NCBI GenBank assembly: GCA_003232385.1
Contig: QIJE01000034.1
Coordinates: forward strand, 1 to 52,194
DNA length: 52,194 bases
Source: a bacterium
GTDB lineage: Bacteria; SZUA-79; Acidulodesulfobacterales; Acidulodesulfobacteraceae
Direction of reading: 5' to 3'
Of the stretch, positions 1,590 through 47,047 are shown piece by piece (the first letter of the stretch is position 1; each line of letters begins with the position of its first letter). The notes under the pieces are model-generated. The model had not been told where the DNA came from, ran no database searches, and saw nothing but the letters and a program-made list of their open reading frames with translations. The translations under genes and the position numbers were made by a program.

Positions 1590-4500
1590 TTACTTTATTA
1601 TTATCTCATCATTATCATCGGCAACGGCAAGTTTTTGCAATTCCCCTTTAAGCCAAACTTTATATTCCGAAACTTTCATTTTACGCGCCGGTATTTCTGT
1701 AGAAAAAGTTTTTTGTTTCGGATTTTCTCCGGTTTCCAGTTTTTCCCTTACAAGCCCTGCGCGCAGAATATCTATTTCGCCTTTCTTACTTCCGTATAAT
1801 TCAATAAAAGAAAGAACTTCGGAATAGGTAAAGCGGATGATTTTATCTTTAACATCAAAATCCAACTTAATTTCACTTCGCGATCTTTGCTGTGCATATT
1901 GCTTTATATTTTCAGCTTTTAATTTTGTTTCATTGTTTAAGCCCGAAGGTAAAGAGCAGATTCCATCAATCAGTTTCTGAGTCAATACCTCTATTTCAGA
2001 ATATTTGGCTGCACAATCTTTCATTGCCTCGCTAAAGAGGCTATAGTAATTGTCTTTAATTTGCTGAGCGATATGATTTAGTTTTCCAAAATTATTTACA
2101 ATATCATCATTAAAATATTGTTTAAATGACTTTACCGACCGAGTAATGTTTTCATCAGACTTAGCGGCTTTTGTCAGTTCATCCAAAACCGCGACGGCAA
2201 ATGCTTTCCATTCTTTAGCTTTTGGCAGTTTGTTATGGATAAACTTCTCGATTTTCTCAATCGATTGAATTGCATTCAGAAATTGCTCTTTATTATTTAA
2301 GAAATCATTTGCTTTATCGGTATAATTAGCTTCGCTAACCGATCCGGTATGATTAGCGAGTAAATCTGCAAGAGAATCCGTGTTTGCAAAAAGATTGTTG
2401 AAATCTTTTTCACTATTTTTCAAAGTTGTTAGTTTATCTACAAAATGCCTTGCTAAATTACGAATGGCATTGACCAGTTCAAAATCGTTGGTGTTATAAT
2501 CTACTTTTCTTCCAATATATTTATCGGCATCAATATTGAGCAGGAATTGGGCTAATTCTTGTTTTTGCAACAAAGAGAGAGATTTAGAAACCGCTTTAAA
2601 AGAGGTTTTTCGAAATTCAAGTGCGGCGCTAAAAATAGCTGCAACGCCATCATCGCGCCATGAATATTTTTCTTCCCCATTGTACTTTGCAATAGCTTTA
2701 CCCGCTCTCATCAAAGCGGCAACGGTCGAGATAACCGTTCCGAAAGTAAATCCGGTAGGCGGTTGTTCCAGTTCCAGCTCTAGTGTTTTGCCATCCACAA
2801 AGGCTTTTCTTATTTTAAATAAAATTTCCTCGGAAACTTTAAGATTTTCACCTATGAAATTGCCGTGAGGATCAAAAAAAATAAAATCGTTACCGTGAAA
2901 ATATTGGTACAGTCTAGTATCATTTGCTTCTTTAATAACAGCTTTTGCTACAGTGTCGCTAAGTTGCGCACCAAGCCGTTTTGTATAAATATTCCTAATC
3001 AGCTCTTTTTGTTGTGATTTTATTGTTGCTAATGCATTATCTTCATTTAATTGCAAAACATTGAAAAGATATATTAATGCCGACTGTTTTAACGAAATTG
3101 CAACCAATTGCTCAATTCTGGTCTGCTTCTCACTTTTTGCAGTTGAAAAACCAATTAAAATTCTTCCTTCTTCACCATTTAGATTATTGTATTTCTGTTC
3201 TAAGTAATTTATGCGTTCAACTTCATCAATTAACTTGTCCAATTCGTTAAAAACACTATTGTCCGGTACGATCCATATTAAATCTTTATCATTTTGATGC
3301 TGGATCTTTAAGTTTTCTATATCCTGGGTTCTGTCATCTAAAATATTGTACAAACTTTTGATTTTAATTTTAAGGTATTTGTTAGCCGGAATAGTTAACC
3401 CGTCATCATTATCTGTAGTAATATAAAAGTCATAATTCAGATTATTTTCATTAATCCGTGCAATTGATTTTATAAAATCTGATTTTTTCAAAGCAGAAAC
3501 GAACTGCTTTTTCTTCACAAATCCCTGCACGGTATAACTATTCATTTCATCAAGCAGATATTGTTCTATGTCGGAGGTAATTCTGTATGTATTATTGGAT
3601 TCAAGCAGTATTTTTGCTTCAATTAACGTCCCAAATGCTTTTTTTATATCTTCCTTGACTTGATAGTATTGTTCCGGATCACATATAAAAGCTTTAATGA
3701 TGTTATTTATATTCGCTGGCGTAACTTCTGCTTCGGCTAAGAAATTTATAGTTTCCAGTAATTTTCTGCCCGAAATTGGGGAACCTGTTTCTTTTAATAT
3801 GCGCTCGGCATTATCGTATCTATTCACCAATCTTACCGGAGGAGAGGGTTGGGCTTCTTTTGCAATCTGCCAACCGGTTACTGTACAAAACAACTCTTCG
3901 TTTTGTACTTCCTTTTTTAAGATATCATAAGTAGTAATGATCATACCGCGGGCAGCTACTTTAGTAGAAACATATCCTTTTGTACCAAACAAGAAATTTT
4001 GCAAAAGGTCAAAATGGTATTTATTAAATGGATAATAAGTTACATACAAATCAACATTATCTGTTTTTGTAATGCCTGAACCAATTAGTGATGAATGATC
4101 TGCTATTTTTCCTGAATTCTTCCGAAAATGATCCCTCAACCGATTAATTCCTTCTTCGTTTTTACTTAATAACCTGCTTTTAATGATTTGATCAACCTCT
4201 GTTGCTTCCAAATGTATTTTCGTCTTAAACCGGTCGGTCACCTTTATTAGCTGAGCCTTACTTACATTCGAGTTGTTGATAACGTCATCTAATTTCTCCT
4301 GAGCAATAGCAATGGTCCAAATTCTATTTCCCGGCGAGGACAATGCTTCGCTCACACCTTCAAGGTCAAGAAGCGTAAATTTATTTTGATTGATTGCTTC
4401 GCTGGCTTCGTCAAAAAGAAAGACAATTTTTTCATCACTTTTTATTTGTAAATAATTGTTAATCTCATCTTTTAATTTGCCTGCGCTAAACTGATCAATT

Positions 4501-5174
4501 TCCCTACGGATAGTGGTTAACAAATTATCGTAGTCATTTTCAGAATTTCCTTGTTTAATAAATATTTCTTTTGCTGCTTTTACATATTCAATCATTTTGG
4601 TTTTTAATTCATTCCAATTTTTATTCAAATAACGATAAATAAAATTTTCAATATTAGTCTGTTCATTGTTAATCATCAATTGAAATAATAAATACCCGTG
4701 CTCATTTTCCGGTAAATCGAGTGACTTTAGAAAGTTGCGAAATAATGCGTAGGCAAAACCCTTTGCGGTATCTTGTTTTGCAATATCAAGAAACACTATT
4801 CTTGAATGAATTGCACTTAATCCGGACAATGCATTTTTGATCAGAGCTTCATCTGCTATTCCGGTAAACCTTTGTAAAATTCTTTCCCTTGCCGGTGTTC
4901 CAAGAATTAATTTATTGCTGAGTAAGTAACCAAGAATTTTACCAAAATATGACTTCCCCGAACCATAAAATCCGGAAACCCACACTCCGGTTTCCAAAAT
5001 GTTAGTTGAATAAACTGAAACAAAATCGGCAAATTCTCTGGCTAAACCATCTGTAATAATATAGTTTTCAATTTCATCCTTAATTTCTTGTTCAGAAATA
5101 TTTTCAAGATCAATTACATTCTTAATGTCTTCGGTAAGATCAATAGTTAATACTTCTTTAATTTTCATCTTCAT
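1590..5174 (-). CDS. brxC: BREX system P-loop ATPase BrxC
   Basis: This 1,194-residue protein matches the size of BrxC/PglY ATPases of BREX phage-defence systems. A Walker A motif, GFYGSGKS, lies at residues 68-75 within a VWVSGFYGSGKSYF context typical of the family. A Walker B-like VFLFDEAS lies at 251-258. The rest is long, charged and largely helical, with no other domain I recognise. BrxC is a large cytoplasmic ATPase thought to act in the complex that recognises or modifies DNA. The gene sits 6 bases after brxB and 6 bases before pglX, a tight operon. An ATG-AAG-ATG pair offers two possible starts (codons 1 and 3), with only a weak purine-rich ribosome site. Identity is firm from the motif, length and order; the exact biochemical role in the family is not settled. 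Confidence 0.92.
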   Translation of the reverse strand: MKMKIKEVLTIDLTEDIKNVIDLENISEQEIKDEIENYIITDGLAREFADFVSVYSTNILETGVWVSGFYGSGKSYFGKILGYLLSNKLILGTPARERILQRFTGIADEALIKNALSGLSAIHSRIVFLDIAKQDTAKGFAYALFRNFLKSLDLPENEHGYLLFQLMINNEQTNIENFIYRYLNKNWNELKTKMIEYVKAAKEIFIKQGNSENDYDNLLTTIRREIDQFSAGKLKDEINNYLQIKSDEKIVFLFDEASEAINQNKFTLLDLEGVSEALSSPGNRIWTIAIAQEKLDDVINNSNVSKAQLIKVTDRFKTKIHLEATEVDQIIKSRLLSKNEEGINRLRDHFRKNSGKIADHSSLIGSGITKTDNVDLYVTYYPFNKYHFDLLQNFLFGTKGYVSTKVAARGMIITTYDILKKEVQNEELFCTVTGWQIAKEAQPSPPVRLVNRYDNAERILKETGSPISGRKLLETINFLAEAEVTPANINNIIKAFICDPEQYYQVKEDIKKAFGTLIEAKILLESNNTYRITSDIEQYLLDEMNSYTVQGFVKKKQFVSALKKSDFIKSIARINENNLNYDFYITTDNDDGLTIPANKYLKIKIKSLYNILDDRTQDIENLKIQHQNDKDLIWIVPDNSVFNELDKLIDEVERINYLEQKYNNLNGEEGRILIGFSTAKSEKQTRIEQLVAISLKQSALIYLFNVLQLNEDNALATIKSQQKELIRNIYTKRLGAQLSDTVAKAVIKEANDTRLYQYFHGNDFIFFDPHGNFIGENLKVSEEILFKIRKAFVDGKTLELELEQPPTGFTFGTVISTVAALMRAGKAIAKYNGEEKYSWRDDGVAAIFSAALEFRKTSFKAVSKSLSLLQKQELAQFLLNIDADKYIGRKVDYNTNDFELVNAIRNLARHFVDKLTTLKNSEKDFNNLFANTDSLADLLANHTGSVSEANYTDKANDFLNNKEQFLNAIQSIEKIEKFIHNKLPKAKEWKAFAVAVLDELTKAAKSDENITRSVKSFKQYFNDDIVNNFGKLNHIAQQIKDNYYSLFSEAMKDCAAKYSEIEVLTQKLIDGICSLPSGLNNETKLKAENIKQYAQQRSRSEIKLDFDVKDKIIRFTYSEVLSFIELYGSKKGEIDILRAGLVREKLETGENPKQKTFSTEIPARKMKVSEYKVWLKGELQKLAVADDNDEIIIK

Positions 5175-19395: not shown

Positions 19396-20136
19396 TTACG
19401 CTATACCGTTAATCGTCTCGTTTTGCAGACTCGTGATTTTTGATACGGCAGTCTTAGAGATATCATAAAGCTTGGTTAATACATCGAATTGAATCGGGGT
19501 CTTTTCCGCACACCCCTGTATTTCTATTATCTTTCCTAAACCCGTTAAGACAAAATTAAAATCCAATTCGGCAACGGAGTCCTCCGAATAATCAAGGTCA
19601 AGCAATATTTCTCCGTTTACTATGCCTATACTGACGGCGGCAACGGAGTCGTAAAAGGGCATCTTTTCGATCTCACCCTTTTTAATAAGATTTAAAAACG
19701 CCAGATAAGCCGCAACATATGACCCGGTTATTGAAGCCGTTCTCGTTCCGCCGTCGGCGCTTATAACGTCGCAATCAATTACTACGGTAATGTTGGGAAA
19801 ATCAGAAAAATTAGCAGCCGATCTCAGCGACCTGCCTATTAGTCTCTGTATTTCCTGCGCCCTTCCGTTAACCTTTCCCTTTGCCGAATCCCTAGGTATC
19901 CTGTTTCGTACAGACCGGGGAAGCATGGAGTATTCGGCGGTCAACCATCCCTCTCCTTTATCTTTAAGGAATGGGGGGACCTTATAATCGACGGATGCGG
20001 TACAAATAACCCTTGTATCCCCAACCTCGATTAAACATGACCCCTCCGCATATTTCATATACGCAGGAGTTATCGACATACTCCTGGACTCATCGTGCAT
20101 TCTATTTTTCTTCCTCGTCAAAGTATTTCCTCCCAT
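19396..20136 (-). CDS. rph: Ribonuclease PH
   Basis: The 246-residue protein matches RNase PH, the phosphorolytic 3' exoribonuclease that trims tRNA 3' ends. Signatures: YAEGSCLIEVGDTRVICTAS, GWLTAEYSMLPRS, GRAQEIQRLIGRSLRSA, DCDVISADGGTRTASITG and the SVGIVNGEILLDLDY segment. The N-terminus is uncertain. The ATG at 20136 lies inside the preceding selenoprotein gene, whereas a TTG at 20121 has a GGAGG seven bases upstream and overlaps the stop codon of that gene, and would give a start closer to the family norm. Either way translation is coupled to the upstream TusA-like gene. Confidence 0.95.
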   Translation of the reverse strand: MGGNTLTRKKNRMHDESRSMSITPAYMKYAEGSCLIEVGDTRVICTASVDYKVPPFLKDKGEGWLTAEYSMLPRSVRNRIPRDSAKGKVNGRAQEIQRLIGRSLRSAANFSDFPNITVVIDCDVISADGGTRTASITGSYVAAYLAFLNLIKKGEIEKMPFYDSVAAVSIGIVNGEILLDLDYSEDSVAELDFNFVLTGLGKIIEIQGCAEKTPIQFDVLTKLYDISKTAVSKITSLQNETINGIA

Positions 20137-20384
20137 TTCTTATTTTTAATGAAAAATATATAAAGGTCTTTTAGCTCGATAACGTCTATCAATCTCACGT
20201 TAACAAGCGAACATAATGCAGGAATATCGTTTAACAAAGAATCCTTATCCGAAACAACCGTTAAAACATCGTCTTGATTCAATCCCTTAAGCTTACGGAC
20301 GACCGCCCATACCGGCGGCCCTCAGCAAAGGCCTCTTATATCAAGAGTAGCGGTTCTGCAATTTAAAACCGACTCCATCCCCAT
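20118..20384 (-). CDS. TusA/SirA-like sulfurtransferase, probable selenoprotein (in-frame UGA = Sec21)
   Basis: A gene missed by standard calling because it contains an in-frame TGA (20324-20322). Reading that TGA as selenocysteine gives 88 residues. The frame begins at ATG 20384 with AAGGAG six bases upstream and ends with TGA at 20118. The residues around the UGA are LDIRGLC-U-GPPVWAVVRKL. TusA proteins have LDxRGLxCPxPV, so U21 falls exactly on the catalytic, persulfide-carrying cysteine. Family features continue after the UGA: a VLTVVSDKDSLLNDIP segment matching TusA's VxADDPxxxxDIP, and a C-terminal YIFFIKNKK strand. So the frame is under coding constraint on both sides of the TGA. TusA carries sulfur in tRNA thiolation, molybdenum cofactor synthesis and sulfur oxidation. 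The gene lies 24 bases after nusB and overlaps rph. Selenocysteine machinery is not in this window. A nonsense mutation or sequencing error is the alternative. Confidence 0.8.
20294..20311 (-). promoter_or_regulatory. Bacterial SECIS-like hairpin downstream of the UGA
   Basis: On the minus strand, UAUGGGC (20311-20305), loop GGUC (20304-20301) and GUCCGUA (20300-20294) form a 7-bp stem with two G-U pairs. It starts 10 bases after the UGA, with the loop G-G-U 18-20 bases after it. Bacterial SECIS elements place a small loop with a conserved G (often GU) about 16 or more bases after the UGA. A competing, more GC-rich hairpin, GGCCGCC/GGCGGUC with loop GGUAUG (20320-20301), sits closer to the UGA. 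Structure inferred by eye. Confidence 0.55.
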
Positions 20385-20408
20385 TTTGAACTCCTTACGA
20401 TTATTTGT

Positions 20409-20870
20409 TTAAACAACCTTGATTGCCGCATCCAAAATGCCGTTGATAAAAGAGGGCGACTCATCGTTCCCGAATTTTTTAGCTATTTCTATAGCTTCGT
20501 TAATAATTACATTCTTAGGAATTTCCGGATGGAACAAAATCTCATAAACGGACATTCTAAGAATATTTCTATCTACACGAGACATCCTATCTATCGTCCA
20601 GTTTTTAGATACGATTTTAATAATATCGTTTATTCTATCTAAATTAGATAAGGAGCCGCGTGAAATATCGGAAAAAAAGCCGAAGATCTGCTCCATGTCT
20701 TTTTCACCGGTCAAACTCTCTTTAGATTTTATAAATCCATCTCTCATAAGACTCTCTGAAGCAAAACAATTATAAAAACTCCTCATTTTATAATCTAAAT
20801 CGTTTATATCTCCATCCATCTCATATAAAAACTGCAAAGCAAGCTCTCTCGCCTTTCTTCTTTTCGTCAT
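20409..20870 (-). CDS. nusB: Transcription antitermination factor NusB
   Basis: A 153-residue all-helical protein matching NusB: RRKARELALQFLYEMD at the N-terminus and, in the C-terminal half, NWTIDRMSRVDRNILRMSVYEILF, then the VIINEAIEIAKKFGNDESPSFINGILD block. NusB binds boxA RNA with NusE (S10) to support antitermination of rRNA operons. A short insertion near residues 40-60 lengthens the first helical region. It sits in the common ribH-nusB order, 38 bases after ribH. Confidence 0.96.
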   Translation of the reverse strand: MTKRRKARELALQFLYEMDGDINDLDYKMRSFYNCFASESLMRDGFIKSKESLTGEKDMEQIFGFFSDISRGSLSNLDRINDIIKIVSKNWTIDRMSRVDRNILRMSVYEILFHPEIPKNVIINEAIEIAKKFGNDESPSFINGILDAAIKVV

Positions 20871-45358: not shown

Positions 45359-47047
45359 TTAACCTGCCGTCCTTGAATGCCTATATGTTACGCCTTCTGT
45401 TTTCGCGGGTTTAATATTTCCATGTTTTCTAACATAATCGGCTATAACATCATAAGCCTTATATTTTGTTAATCCCTTATTGTCAGGATTCATGTTTTGC
45501 ATTTTTATACCGGTGGACACCGCCCAATACTTTTTATTTAAATCCAAGGGTTTTCCGTTGATTTTCCATGTCTTAATTCTCTTATTCAGCGACTCGTTCA
45601 GTAATAAATGAAATTTTGAATTGGAAACGCGCGTCACGTCGCCCCCCATTTGCAGATACGGGTCTTTTGCAAAAACATCGCTTAAAACGCTTAATTGAGA
45701 AAATAACAGTTGCCTTCCGGTCAATCTGGTCTTATAAACCTCCGGATAGGTCGTACCGTACCAACCGTAAATATTTTCCATAGTGATATCGGAACCCGGA
45801 ACAAGCGTTTCTCCCCAACGCCAACCCGGGGCAAAAAATAACGGCATATCGAATAACTCCGTAAACGCTTGTTCGGCAAGGCTATCAACGGGACATGCAA
45901 AAGTCGCTCTTCTATAAATCAAAGATTCGGCAATCCCCAATTTTTCATTAAGCAGGTCATTATATGGGGCATGTTCCTCGTCAATTATCTTTTGCACTTT
46001 TTTATCGGGATTAATCCAGTTTGTAACAATAGGTATTAATTTATGATCGTAATCTGTTATTCTTCTATTCTTAACGTTTAAATCGATCTTTCCTATAAAC
46101 TTACCGTGCGTACCCGCCTGACATATAATGGTGTTATTAATAATATCGGGAGCGGGGAGTATATCATGGGTATGCCCGCCTATTATTAAGTCTATACCGT
46201 TAATTAAAGCCGCAAACTTCCTGTCTGCCTCTAGACCGTTATGTGAAAGAACGACGACTAAATCTACCTTTTCTTTATTTTTAAGTTCATTTACCATTTT
46301 CTGCGCATGATAGGTGTCTATTCCGAAAGTCCAGTTCTCGACAAAATGGGCGGGGTGAGCTAACGGAACGTACGGAAAAGCCTGACCTATTATGCCTACC
46401 CTTAAGCCGTTTATCTCTTTTATCATGTATGGCTTGAATATAAGATTGCCCCATGTTGAATCCTTGACATTTTGGGCTATAAACGGAAACTTCAATTTTT
46501 TGATGTTAGATAAGAGCTGCTTCTTGCCGTAAGTAAACTCCCAATGTCCCGTCATGGCGTCATAACCCATGGCATTTTGAGTATTCACTACCGCCATGCC
46601 TTTGGTAAGAAGGGCTATCCCCGTACCCTGCCATGAATCTCCCGTATCAAGCTGTATGGTCTTATTGTATCTTTCGGCTTTTATCTTATTAAAAATAGAT
46701 GCCATATGGGCATAGCCGCCCATATAACCATACCGTTTGTTTAAATTTACAAAATCAACGTATGAGCAAAAATACCCCATGGCGGATTTTGGGTTGATAT
46801 CGTAATAAAGATTAAACGAGTCTCCGACCAAATGCCCCGGTTTGCCGTTCATGCTATGACAGCCTATGTTAACGGAAGGCTCCATATATAAAGTAGGTTT
46901 TAAATGGGCATGCGAATCGGAATTCCATGTGATAGTCAAATTGCCTACCGATTTAAATTTTAAAAGGTTCACAGGGTTTATTGCGACCCCGGCCGCAAGA
47001 ACTGACGATGTTTTCAAAAAGTCTCTCCTGGATAATTCGCCGGACAT
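45359..47047 (-). CDS. soxB: Sox sulfohydrolase SoxB
   Basis: The 562-residue protein has a twin-arginine signal (SRRDFLKTSSVLAAG, RR at 7-8) and the metallophosphoesterase/5'-nucleotidase fold of SoxB. Metal-site segments: WNSDSHAHLKP near 41-51, QLDTGDSWQGTG, LSHNGLEADR, IIGGHTHDILPAP and the QAGTHGKF block. SoxB hydrolyses the S-sulfonate on SoxY to release sulfate, using two manganese ions in the periplasm. An AGGAG site lies just before the ATG. A perfect 18-bp palindrome lies 30 bases upstream. Confidence 0.95.
   Translation of the reverse strand: MSGELSRRDFLKTSSVLAAGVAINPVNLLKFKSVGNLTITWNSDSHAHLKPTLYMEPSVNIGCHSMNGKPGHLVGDSFNLYYDINPKSAMGYFCSYVDFVNLNKRYGYMGGYAHMASIFNKIKAERYNKTIQLDTGDSWQGTGIALLTKGMAVVNTQNAMGYDAMTGHWEFTYGKKQLLSNIKKLKFPFIAQNVKDSTWGNLIFKPYMIKEINGLRVGIIGQAFPYVPLAHPAHFVENWTFGIDTYHAQKMVNELKNKEKVDLVVVLSHNGLEADRKFAALINGIDLIIGGHTHDILPAPDIINNTIICQAGTHGKFIGKIDLNVKNRRITDYDHKLIPIVTNWINPDKKVQKIIDEEHAPYNDLLNEKLGIAESLIYRRATFACPVDSLAEQAFTELFDMPLFFAPGWRWGETLVPGSDITMENIYGWYGTTYPEVYKTRLTGRQLLFSQLSVLSDVFAKDPYLQMGGDVTRVSNSKFHLLLNESLNKRIKTWKINGKPLDLNKKYWAVSTGIKMQNMNPDNKGLTKYKAYDVIADYVRKHGNIKPAKTEGVTYRHSRTAG

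Follow-up and report, generated by a model that had tools for sequence, protein, structure and literature searches.

A short gene lying between nusB and rph in a member of the Acidulodesulfobacteraceae almost certainly encodes a selenoprotein of the TusA superfamily, in which an in-frame TGA at the position of the family's reactive cysteine is read as selenocysteine (Sec). This reading rests on the conservation of that TGA among relatives, on purifying selection acting on the frame, on a covarying SECIS element and invariant third codon bases, and on the presence of the selenocysteine machinery in the genome. Judged against the open-access literature, it is a new selenoprotein family within a known protein superfamily. 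In all genomes of the lineage, standard annotation would miss the gene or report no more than a 20-residue piece of it. Selenocysteine at the reactive site of the TusA family would introduce the chemistry of selenium to a family of sulfur shuttles, and would open the question of what selenium adds to persulfide transfer.

The window, by which is meant the whole 52,194-nucleotide stretch that was analysed, comes from a genome of 1.54 Mb that is 95% complete. This source genome and 29 of the others sampled make up one family, and all remaining genomes share only the domain with the source. Among the family members is Candidatus Acididesulfobacter diazotrophicus AP1 (G006, locus L064), whose genus is placed by NCBI in Candidatus Acidulodesulfobacteriota. 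The uncultured lineage is known from acid mine drainage and carries dsrAB, dsrD, dsrL and dsrEFH (PMC6776010), and it has been described as reducing sulfate by the dissimilatory route and possibly oxidizing sulfide as well.

A TusA-family frame with a single internal TGA

The gene occupies positions 20118-20384 on the minus strand, to which all features of the locus described here belong, and with its internal TGA read through it specifies 88 residues. It opens with an ATG (20384-20382) that follows a Shine-Dalgarno sequence, AAGGAG (20391-20396), by 6 nt, and it closes with its own TGA stop (20120-20118), which overlaps the start of rph, probably the TTG at 20121. The in-frame TGA at codon 21 (20322-20324) is the sole break in this TusA-family frame, and the original prediction had described the frame, its signals, its coordinates and its overlap with rph correctly. 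Upstream on the same strand lies nusB (20409-20870; Pfam NusB, 4.2e-34), the 5' neighbour in all 27 orthologous loci, and downstream lies rph, encoding RNase PH (19396-20121; Pfam RNase_PH, 5.6e-25), which is found 3' of the gene in most relatives. The original observation that TusA-like features continue past the TGA is borne out by the match to Pfam TusA, which spans the codon and covers residues 13-80 (2.1e-10; 40.7 bits against a cut-off of 28.6). Apart from codon 21, no TGA in the window both resembled a Sec codon and had a convincing continuation. Two large minus-strand frames elsewhere in it, at 1590-5174 (1194 residues) and 45359-47047 (562 residues), have no Pfam match at 1e-10.

Conservation, distribution and loss

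A protein search of 99 genomes recovered an orthologue whose frame is interrupted by a TGA at the identical position in 26 of the 29 other family genomes, with identities to the window protein of 52-78% over the aligned rows. Cysteine is encoded at the site in none of the 27 orthologous loci (26 distinct sequences), all of which have TGA; it is the more distant paralogues that have cysteine, a distribution of Sec and Cys among homologues that accords with what had been anticipated. The sequence is conserved up to its natural end, and dN/dS is approximately 0.10 downstream of the SECIS. This conservation, together with the recurrence of the same TGA across the family, indicates that the codon is not there by chance. 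RibH and NusB are encoded directly upstream in 27 of 27 loci, and the 3' neighbour is rph in 25 of them and RdgB in G004. These surroundings are those of an ordinary rib-nusB operon and carry little functional information, and the original suggestion that linkage to nusB and rph might hint at function thus gains little.

Three family genomes are without the gene. Two of them, G012 and G023, also lack nusB, and their absences are therefore likely to reflect gaps in assembly. In the third, G026, nusB and rph are present and the gene has been cleanly deleted, leaving a scar that keeps its last codons. The deletion junction (L116, G026:C131) falls within the stretch AAAATAAGGAC, which is partly common to the end of nusB. 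G026 is also one of only 4 genomes of the 30 that encode a TusA paralogue with two adjacent cysteines (GLCC-SxP; L106:2722-2952, L107:2393-2623, L108:2237-2482 and L109:1759-2004). A TetR-type regulator follows this Cys-Cys paralogue in each instance and a nitroreductase precedes it in three; at L107 a second, degenerate-looking copy lies just upstream. Replacement of the Sec protein by the Cys-Cys paralogue in G026 is only suggestive, as it is a single case.

Beyond the family, a DNA-pattern scan of 85k species matched 36 loci, 21 of which continue as TusA, all in Ca. Acidulodesulfobacteriota. The other 15 have no TusA read-on after the TGA and were rejected. Sec-TusA frames of the LDxRG type were thus found nowhere outside this lineage in the scan, whose pattern required R or S in LDxRG and could not detect a Sec-TusA with a motif of the DAxGL type. 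Neither of two profile searches, one of 386 genomes and one of 290, yielded a further orthologue, and there was no match in plasmids or in phage protein families. A tree of 16 rows gathers the Sec proteins into one group with full support, which is consistent with a single origin of Sec.

The recoding signal and the selenocysteine machinery

The upper hairpin of the putative SECIS spans 20294-20311 (minus strand; +11 to +28 after the UGA) and consists of 7 bp capped by a GGUC loop at 20301-20304 (+18 to +21). In alignment A2, 95.7% of cells in the hairpin are paired and both sides have changed in 23 cells: pair 16-23 occurs as GU, GC or AU, pair 14-25 as GC, UG or UA, and pair 12-27, both partners of which are third codon positions, as either AU or UA. 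The covariation score was matched by none of 500 shuffles and was lost when the register was slid, and RNAalifold picks the same helix. Third codon bases vary freely over codons -7 to +62 (mean entropy 1.25 bits), the only ones invariant in the 26 distinct sequences being those of codons 0, +5, +6, +7 and +8 and of one Phe codon. The invariant third positions from +5 to +8 form the loop and the top of the hairpin; codon +5 specifies Trp, Leu or Arg, yet its third base is always G, and the loop itself is the same in all 26 sequences despite two synonymous third positions. The bSECIS model places the loop 16-37 nt from the UGA, with G in the first two loop positions and a stem of 4-16 bp (PMC13188914), and the hairpin agrees with it in presenting GGUC after 17 nt on a covarying stem of 7 bp.

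The minimum-energy fold of the window's own sequence is a competing stem, stem A, and not the covarying hairpin. Stem A, in which the UGA is paired with +23/+24 and the loop lies at +9 to +14, was rejected for want of covariation and because just 8 nt separate its loop from the UGA. SelD, encoded in the source genome at L087:9455 (G000:C2), is a further candidate selenoprotein (SAHG-U-GCK); a SECIS-like loop follows its own in-frame TGA with the same spacing as in the TusA-like gene, the GG being at +18/+19.

The genome possesses the machinery upon which the original prediction depended, including a tRNA-Sec (64 bits against a cut-off of 47), a full-length SelB (318 bits), SelA and SelD; across the family, 29 of 30 genomes have SelA and all 30 have SelD with the in-frame TGA. 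A TusA-family selenoprotein gene, as originally proposed, is thus supported by the conserved TGA, the SECIS and the machinery alike. The alternative that the TGA is an ordinary stop, whether in a pseudogene, through a sequencing error, or at the end of a genuine peptide of 20 residues followed by a second, separately made product, finds its one argument in the codon itself and is highly improbable, given that 27 assemblies share the TGA, that purifying selection acts on either side of it, that the SECIS covaries and that the Sec machinery is present.

Fold, active-site motif and novelty

The AlphaFold model (pLDDT 86, pTM 0.77) has the TusA fold (beta-alpha-beta-alpha-beta-beta), and its best Foldseek match is E. 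coli TusA from the complex with IscS (TM 0.74/0.83). Profile alignment (3lvj/1dcj) sets Sec21 on the cysteine of GLRCPEPV, that is, on E. coli Cys19, which upholds the predicted placement of the TGA at the catalytic cysteine, and it sets Cys58 (20211-20213), an invariant column, on the cysteine of DIPGFC, the equivalent of E. coli Cys56. Both Cys19 and Cys56 are important for the function of E. coli TusA (PMC11302665). The motif originally claimed, of the LDxRGLxCPxPV type, holds only in part: Sec does occupy the place of the catalytic cysteine, but the residue after it is glycine and not proline, and the CPxP motif that is a mark of TusA proteins (PMC11073785) accordingly reads U-G-P-P here and in all orthologues except that of G004 (U-G-T-P). 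The residue before Sec is Cys20 (20325-20327), invariant in all orthologues and represented by CC in the Cys paralogues, and the active site would consequently be a vicinal Cys-Sec pair, C-U-G. The protein scores below the cut-offs of the NCBIfam TusA equivalog (41.7 against 78 bits) and of the YedF models (TIGR03527, 12.2 against 110 bits; PRK11018, 22 against 79), and for this reason it was not typed as a member of either.

A selenoprotein entered as TusA, SirA, PF01206 or COG0425 appears neither in Table 1 of a 2022 catalogue (PMC9312934) nor in Table 1 of a 2026 catalogue of 119 families (PMC13188914), and the marine survey PMC2398784 contains no selenoprotein of the TusA/SirA family. The statement in the original prediction that SirA/TusA-like selenoproteins had been listed in earlier surveys therefore finds no backing in the two catalogues; the SirA-like/YedF proteins of earlier papers are Cys proteins linked to SelD or selenium (PMC2432076, PMC5322559).

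Proposed function and its alternatives

Taken as a whole, chemistry included, the explanation towards which we lean, if only somewhat, is that this TusA-fold selenoprotein serves as a sulfane-sulfur carrier or reductase in which Sec21 acts with Cys20 or Cys58. The hairpin, with its GGUC loop 17 nt past the UGA, would recruit SelB with Sec-tRNA-Sec, and the UGA would be read through. Sec21 would stand in for the sulfur-accepting cysteine of TusA, its selenolate attacking a sulfane-sulfur donor such as a persulfide, polysulfide, thiosulfate or tetrathionate and forming an intermediate of the type Sec-S-SH or Sec-S-SO3, from which the sulfur may be passed to an acceptor or released via a selenenylsulfide, with Cys20 or Cys58 as the presumed resolving thiol. 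The source genome also encodes two ordinary CPxP TusA proteins, one of them beside IscS-IscU, and the Sec protein would thus be a specialised paralogue that works alongside the Cys-type TusA encoded with IscS-IscU and does not replace it, the latter being the natural candidate for the housekeeping sulfur relay. The sulfur metabolism of the lineage, with its dsrAB and dsrEFH, speaks for this explanation. Counting against it, the CPxP proline beside the nucleophile has given way to glycine, and sulfur transfer from IscS may accordingly not be the protein's job; the neighbouring genes (riboflavin genes, nusB and rph) are housekeeping genes and name no partner; and stem A is the more stable fold in the window itself. 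Tentatively, and with somewhat less confidence, the uncatalogued family as a whole, with its Sec beside an invariant Cys (C-U-G), could represent a selenium-based sulfane-sulfur carrier or reductase that is near-universal and lineage-defining in the sulfur metabolism of Ca. Acidulodesulfobacteriota.

The original prediction had also raised the modification of tRNA. A role in tRNA selenation is not supported and is unlikely, since none of the 12 genomes tested, each at least 90% complete, encodes MnmH, the selenouridine synthase through which selenation was considered. A role in tRNA thiolation is possible; MnmA is present, but there is a separate Cys-type TusA beside IscS-IscU. In genus g2, the match to MnmA is split in two inside a single open frame (G001:C1:179156-180343, G006:C17:2871-4202 and G009:C108:220-1569), as if there were an insert near profile position 214.

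The main rival to a sulfane-sulfur carrier or reductase is a redox enzyme that carries no sulfur, in which a selenenylsulfide cycle between Cys20 and Sec21 would reduce peroxides, persulfides or protein disulfides; this we regard as rather unlikely. The GCUG tail of mammalian thioredoxin reductase cycles as a selenenylsulfide. The invariance of the C-U-G motif and the loss of the CPxP proline speak for such a cycle, as do the TetR regulator and, often, nitroreductase beside the Cys-Cys paralogues, and a redox role is presumed for most of the selenoproteins catalogued (PMC13188914). The retention of the TusA fold and of both TusA functional Cys positions argues against it, however, as does the lack of a linked reductase gene among the neighbours at the loci. 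Two further proposals are weaker than the redox role. By analogy to the SelD-linked YedF/SirA-like proteins, the protein might carry selenium to SelD; SirA-like/YedF proteins co-occur with SelD (PMC2432076, PMC5322559) and every family genome has SelD, but the gene is on contig C7 whereas selD and selA are on C2, G026 retains SelA and SelD after losing the gene, and the DsrE domain of YedF is missing, so that this role is improbable. The handling of mercury or other metals, with the vicinal Cys-Sec pair binding soft metals in acid mine water, is less probable still: CU motifs do recur in catalogued selenoproteins such as the MerB-like SaoL, HgcA and MbdU (PMC13188914), but no metal genes lie nearby and the operon is a housekeeping one.

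Relation to known systems

The SECIS is comparable to that of E. coli fdhF, which likewise has a stem and a GG loop, with very similar spacing from the UGA, its GGUC being at +19 to +22, although the upper stem in the window is without the bulged base of the fdhF element. With E. coli TusA the protein shares its fold, length, catalytic position and the second functional cysteine in a DIPxxC segment; it differs in having Sec for Cys, UGPP for CPxP and an extra vicinal cysteine ahead of the Sec, and in occurring in a genome with separate, ordinary TusA genes. YedF has a TusA-type N-terminal domain and occurs in selenium-using organisms (PMC5322559), but the Sec protein consists of the TusA domain only (88 residues), without the DsrE-like C-terminal domain and its CGxC, carries Sec in the TusA motif, and is encoded apart from selD. 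YeeD (TsuB), the partner of YeeE, has the same fold (Foldseek 8j4c, 8k1r), and its reactive residue handles thiosulfate (PMC11073785); here, by contrast, that site is Sec within UGPP, and no YeeE gene is among the neighbours examined. The Cys-Cys paralogue of the same lineage is a TusA-family protein with Cys at the Sec position, and it differs from the Sec protein in that residue, in its genomic setting and in its presence in only 4 of 30 genomes. The strict retention of Sec across the family, set beside a single clean loss in a genome with the Cys-Cys paralogue, provides a natural comparison of Sec with Cys.
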